Below are positions 16,070 to 17,361 of a stretch of DNA of 64,000 nt, piece after piece (the stretch's first letter is position 1; every line of letters starts with the position of its first letter). The stretch comes from Planctomycetia bacterium (GTDB taxonomy: Bacteria > Planctomycetota > Planctomycetia > Gemmatales > Gemmataceae). The DNA is taken from assembly GCA_005772955.1 (NCBI GenBank), contig SXID01000075.1:1-64000 (forward strand), read 5' to 3'. The notes below the pieces were generated by a model that had not been told where the DNA came from, did no database searches, and worked only from the letters and a program-made list of their open reading frames with translations. Position numbers and translations under genes: made by a program.

Positions 16070-17068
16070 TCAGTCCGGCAGTCCGCTGCGCGCCCCAGTC
16101 GGGAACAGCGCGTCGTCGTCATCCGGCAACCCGGGTAGTGTCTTTGCGCCAACGTTCGCCGGAACGCCCGCTTTCATTTTCGTTGCCAGCGCCGCCTTGC
16201 GCCGGTCCTTGTCGTCAGCGAGCCGCGATTGTAGCACCTTCGGAATCGCGCCCCACGCGGTCGCCAGATCCGGGAGCGTCTTCGCGGCGTTGAGCTTCTG
16301 GCGGTGGTGGTCTTCCGGCGAAACCGCTTCCACCGGTTCCGCGGACAGCCACCAGTCGAACAGCGGCTTCCAGAACGCGGGCCCGGGCGACTCGCACGTC
16401 TTGCCGTCCATCGCGGTACACCCGCGAACCTTCTCGACACGGGCCGCGTGGTTCTCGACCTCCAACCGAATCACCGCGTCGAACTCGTACTCGGTGTTCT
16501 CGCGCTGATCGGTCTTCATCCCCACCTTCTTGATCTTGGTCTTGCCCGCGTCGTCGATGCGTTCGTACTCGCTCTTCACGCGCATTGTGGCAATGCAATG
16601 CGCTCGCGGGTCGGTCATGGTGGTGAGCATCTTGCGTTGTTCCGGCGTGACCTGCGCCCAGCCGCCGAATTTGTCGCCACGGTTGGCCCGCGCGTAGGTG
16701 TCCACCTTCTCCATCGCGCCATGCCAGGCGTGCGAGAGCGAATCGAAGATGACGATATCGAACCCCGTGCTGACGAGGTACTCGTAGCACTCGGCGTACC
16801 CGACCGGGTGCTGCGCCGTGTGTGGGATGGGGCACACTTCGTACTCCCACTTCTCGCCGTCCATCTGCACGCCGTCGTACAACCCCGCCGACTCGTTCTC
16901 CGAATCAGCGATTACGATCTTCTTGCCGATACCGGCGCGTTTCATGGCGAACGCGAGCCGCAGCGCGCTGAACGTCTTGCCACTCCCCGAAAGGCCTTCG
17001 ATGCTGATCTTCAGCGGGCGGCGTTGCCGCTTCGCCTTGCGAACTTCAAACATGGTGCGGTTCTCCAC
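16070..17068 (-). CDS. Phage-type AAA/RecA-fold ATPase
   Basis: A 332-residue protein. A Walker A motif (EGLSGSGKTFSALRLA, residues about 24-39) and a Walker B-like FDIVIFDSLSHAW near residue 107 mark a P-loop NTPase of the type found in phage replication/recombination modules (AAA_24 or Sak4-like). The C-terminus has a short helical motif (LNAAKTLPDLATAWGAIP... DRRKAAL) that also occurs in phage single-strand annealing or ATPase proteins. Start may be 17068 or the internal ATG at 17053. No phage structural genes accompany it, so it is probably a prophage relic or domesticated gene next to tRNA-Sec. Confidence 0.75.
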   Translation of the reverse strand: MENRTMFEVRKAKRQRRPLKISIEGLSGSGKTFSALRLAFAMKRAGIGKKIVIADSENESAGLYDGVQMDGEKWEYEVCPIPHTAQHPVGYAECYEYLVSTGFDIVIFDSLSHAWHGAMEKVDTYARANRGDKFGGWAQVTPEQRKMLTTMTDPRAHCIATMRVKSEYERIDDAGKTKIKKVGMKTDQRENTEYEFDAVIRLEVENHAARVEKVRGCTAMDGKTCESPGPAFWKPLFDWWLSAEPVEAVSPEDHHRQKLNAAKTLPDLATAWGAIPKVLQSRLADDKDRRKAALATKMKAGVPANVGAKTLPGLPDDDDALFPTGARSGLPD

Positions 17069-17266
17069 GGGCGGTTGAACAGGAACAACGTTACTCCCGC
17101 CATCGTCGCGGCGCGCACTACCGTGTCATATGTTCGTTAGTTCAGTAGTGAACGAAAGATAGATCTGCCGCCCGCACAACCGGAACCGGGTGCGGAGAGA
17201 GGTTCTCGAAACGAAGAGAGCCAAGCGTGTTGCGAACCGACGTGGGGCGCGATCGTGCGAAGCAAG

Positions 17267-17361
17267 CGGGAGTGTATGGAAATCGAATCCACTGGGAGCG
17301 TTGTTCACACCCCCCACAGGTTTTGAAGACCTGGGCCGACACCAGTCGTGCAAACACTCCC
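17267..17361 (-). tRNA. selC: tRNA-Sec (anticodon UCA)
   Basis: The minus strand folds into a 95-base selenocysteine tRNA. The 8-bp acceptor stem GGGAGTGT/ACACTCCC is one pair longer than in normal tRNAs. The anticodon stem CAGGT/ACCTG holds the loop CTTCAAA, giving UCA, which reads UGA. A long variable arm of 8 pairs (GGGGGTGT with ACGCTCCC, including wobbles) follows, then a 5-bp T stem around TTCGATT. The discriminator is G, and CCA is not encoded. The D arm is weaker than expected: four clear pairs (CGAC/GTCG) and mismatches outside them. The gene implies selenocysteine use in this organism; selA, selB and selD are not in the window. Confidence 0.88.

Follow-up and report, generated by a model that had tools for sequence, protein, structure and literature searches.

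The tRNA-Sec gene and its surroundings

The window, that is, the whole stretch of 64,000 nucleotides that was analyzed, carries a tRNA-Sec (selC) gene on its minus strand at positions 17267 to 17361. ARAGORN reports a tRNA-Sec with a UCA anticodon at 17266 to 17361, and the Rfam tRNA-Sec family RF01852 matches 17268 to 17361 over the full length of its model, scoring 71 bits (E value, 1.6e-12) against a gathering score of 47 bits. Both agree with the sequence-only reading, which had called a minus-strand tRNA-Sec here and had named a covariance model score as a check. No other Rfam family exceeded its threshold in the whole window, tRNA-Sec being the sole match.

On the minus strand, the gene reads GGGAGUGU UU GC-A-CGAC UGGU GUCG-GC C CAGGU CUUCAAA ACCUG ... 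G. Its minimum free energy (MFE) structure coincides with the centroid structure and is the bacterial 8/5 cloverleaf, with an energy of -45 kcal/mol, a z score of -4.1, and none of 200 shuffled sequences equally stable. In this fold, just as had been read from the bare letters, the acceptor stem has 8 bp, the T stem 5 bp, and the variable arm 8 bp, and the anticodon UCA lies in the loop CUUCAAA (CTTCAAA in the DNA; 17322 to 17328, minus strand), which is also assigned by ARAGORN and Rfam. The anticodon stem has 5 bp, and the acceptor and T stems together make up 13 bp (8 + 5). The discriminator G73 is present as the G that follows ACACUCCC. CCA is not encoded by the gene, and an encoded GCCA is also absent from 51 of the 67 tRNA-Sec genes of relatives that could be parsed. 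The locus is a bona fide, ordinary bacterial tRNA-Sec gene.

Directly downstream of selC, at 16070 to 17068 and on the same strand, lies a gene for an AAA_24 ATPase. AAA_24 ATPases of this kind are often seen in phages. The possibility that selC served as the att site for this adjoining gene was considered and rejected, no repeat of the tRNA of at least 14 bases being found elsewhere in the window. Judging by its PSCyt1/PSCyt2/PSD1 and DUF1501 genes, the organism appears to be a planctomycete.

Architecture and distribution of the D-stem bulge

The D arm occupies 17335 to 17351 on the minus strand and is assigned by the covariance model, the MFE fold, and covariation as GC-A(bulge)-CGAC, loop UGGU, and GUCG-GC. 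It thus has six pairs, a 4-nt loop, and one bulged A, at window position 17349. The bulge sits on the 5' strand between pairs 2 and 3 from the acceptor side, with a G-C and a C-G pair outside the CGAC/GUCG helix.

The sequence-only reading had instead described four clean pairs with mismatches outside, which would make this a divergent tRNA-Sec with a truly shortened D stem. In favor of this view, CGAC/GUCG is the sole uninterrupted D-stem helix and, if no bulge is allowed, the next two positions become A.G and C.C. The tRNA-Sec genes of relatives, taken from an Rfam search of 99 genomes, speak against it. In the 61 of 64 distinct tRNAs that share one segment length, the outer two positions pair in the bulged register in 61 of 61 relatives, compared to 4 of 61 when the bulge is left out. 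The pair types, moreover, change in a compensatory manner: the outermost pair is G-C in 57, C-G in 3, and A-U in 1, and the next pair is C-G in 53, U-G in 7, and G-C in 1. Upon shuffling of the columns, the observed pair count was matched in 0 of 2,000 shuffles for the outermost pair and in 32 of 2,000 for the next; since such shuffles ignore relatedness, the compensatory pair types weigh more than these counts. With the MFE fold and the covariance model also giving six pairs, the covariation in relatives rules out the four-pair stem, and we consider a shortened D stem very improbable.

The six-pair, bulged stem is also less unusual than had been supposed. In this planctomycete lineage, the bulge is close to fixed. 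Of 109 parsed tRNA-Sec among the matches listed from many phyla, 60 form their six pairs without interruption, and 29 form six pairs around an internal 5'-strand bulge. These classes follow our own parsing rule, and the sample, drawn from genome contigs by sequence pattern, does not give an unbiased frequency. Santesmasses and colleagues (PMC5330540), who name a six-pair D stem as standard for bacteria, describe a bulged D stem in Clostridiales tRNA-Sec. Their bulge at position 13a and the one described here both place a bulged base in the D stem, but the Clostridiales cases are reported among tRNAs with a 12-bp acceptor-T stem, whereas selC here has the standard 13 bp and carries its bulge between D-stem pairs 2 and 3. 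Because the bulge is common in the bacterial sample and has been published, it counts as variation of a known type that many other bacteria share, and the earlier description of the D arm as unusual was overstated. Hence, a single D-stem bulge, being common among bacterial tRNA-Sec, should not be taken for a short D stem. Compared to the bacterial tRNA-Sec described by RF01852, the gene is alike in its 8/5 stems, UCA anticodon, long variable arm, six-pair D stem, 4-nt loop, and G73, and differs in the bulge of the 5' D-stem strand and in the unencoded CCA.

Conceivably, the bulge is not neutral but functional, co-adapted with the N-terminal domain of SelA that binds the D arm, although we regard this as unlikely. 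A review (PMC7609411) describes the fifth and sixth D-stem pairs as aiding SelA activity whatever their sequence, and both are present here.

Selenocysteine genes and a probable formate dehydrogenase selenoprotein

All three protein genes that had been named as a check on selenocysteine (Sec) decoding were found in the genome, scoring above curated cut-offs and free of internal stops: selA on contig 34 (551 bits; cut-off, 268; SelA domain), selB on contig 8 (381 bits; cut-off, 242; SelB-wing_3 domain), and selD on contig 124 (386 bits; cut-off, 125; AIRS domain). Inspection of its N-terminal motif showed that SelD carries Cys rather than Sec. With selC on contig 44, the four genes lie on different contigs of this draft genome. 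In the 99 genomes, with tRNA-Sec scored above 60 bits and selA above its cut-off, 63 have both genes, 25 have neither, 3 have the tRNA only, and 8 have selA only; six of the eight selA-only genomes are fragmented assemblies, and two of the three tRNA-only genomes contain partial selA matches. In the part of PMC4807772 considered here, full Sec insertion gene sets are already reported for Gemmata obscuriglobus and Isosphaera pallida, likewise Planctomycetes, and the D arm of the tRNA is not described there.

A formate dehydrogenase gene (FdhA) on contig 137, recognized by the formate dehydrogenase alpha profile, contains one in-frame TGA. This codon falls at the known Sec position within SCNRT-U-HAPSVVGL, which fits the motif UHxP given for formate dehydrogenases that contain Sec. 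The search of 99 genomes yielded eight orthologues spanning the Sec site (71 to 92% identity) in addition to the gene of this genome, and all nine copies have exactly one TGA, at the Sec codon; the orthologue of one additional relative (68% identity) comprises the C-terminal part only.

A SECIS-like hairpin follows the UGA, with a GGUCU loop 18 nt downstream. Its tip is identical in seven of the nine copies and differs by one base in the other two. E. coli fdhF shares both the GGUCU loop and the 18-nt spacing, the compared stretch being confirmed as fdhF in E. coli genomes. The hairpin also falls within the constraints on loop, spacing, and energy described for bacterial SECIS elements (PMC13188914). 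Given its composition, the hairpin is of unexceptional stability (z score, -0.89), and the case for this candidate SECIS element is made by conservation and by the likeness to fdhF, not by stability. FdhA thus fits the combination of an in-frame TGA and a SECIS hairpin for which a genome search had been proposed, even though hairpin stability alone is not significant.

The catalytic subunit itself appears split and permuted at this locus (minus strand, about 3.5 to 8.5 kb on the contig). The order is the Sec-bearing molybdopterin part (PF00384 and PF01568), a NuoE-NuoF fusion, and a 339-amino-acid protein with 2Fe-2S, 4Fe-4S, and Molybdop_Fe4S4 (PF04879) domains. In all nine copies spanning the site, the FdhA frame opens just some 90 to 150 codons 5' of the TGA.

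Probable UGA decoding and tRNA-Sec-like genes of relatives

UGA is very likely decoded as selenocysteine in this planctomycete, as had been proposed from the tRNA gene; this is well supported because selA, selB, and selD are present and are joined by the FdhA TGA, conserved in every copy spanning the site, and by the SECIS-like hairpin. We are nearly certain that selC specifies a functional tRNA-Sec with a six-pair, bulged D stem that is used at least for the UGA of the NuoEF-linked formate dehydrogenase. By homology, the selC transcript would be trimmed, supplied with CCA, and charged with serine by SerRS. SelA would then convert Ser-tRNA to Sec-tRNA using selenophosphate provided by SelD, and SelB would bring Sec-tRNA to UGA codons with a SECIS hairpin after them, that of the formate dehydrogenase presumably being one such target. 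Expression, charging, and Sec insertion may all be expected on these grounds.

One might argue that selC is a decaying relic or an opal suppressor tRNA unrelated to Sec, given that CCA is absent from the gene and that no selenoprotein candidate was seen within the window. Yet all of its stems are intact, encoded GCCA is likewise missing in most parsed relatives, and the genome holds both the sel machinery and a Sec-type FdhA, so that we see hardly any likelihood in this explanation. The expectation that some UGA-terminated genes are longer selenoproteins holds for the genome, by virtue of FdhA; inside the window, none was seen among extensions past TGA and frames before it. The read-through frames considered there did not show the GC pattern by codon position that the window's genes have. 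Since some UGA codons very likely mean Sec in this organism, stop-terminated gene calls, such as that of formate dehydrogenase, need correcting.

Elsewhere in the genome, no match to the SelW/T/H family was found, nothing scored above the cut-off for ArsS, and the AhpC/TSA matches had no in-frame stop. In the search of 99 genomes, Sec-type FdhA was not found in most relatives with tRNA-Sec and selA, and some other selenoprotein therefore probably maintains the Sec trait in these FdhA-less relatives.

Two relatives (G066 and G041) carry a second, tRNA-Sec-like gene besides tRNA-Sec (L081:201-293 and L082:201-294). These genes resemble the published selC* tRNA-Cys group (PMC7609411). They have a long variable arm, an extended D stem, and a GCA (Cys) anticodon, and they match RF01852 and are called tRNA-Cys by ARAGORN.
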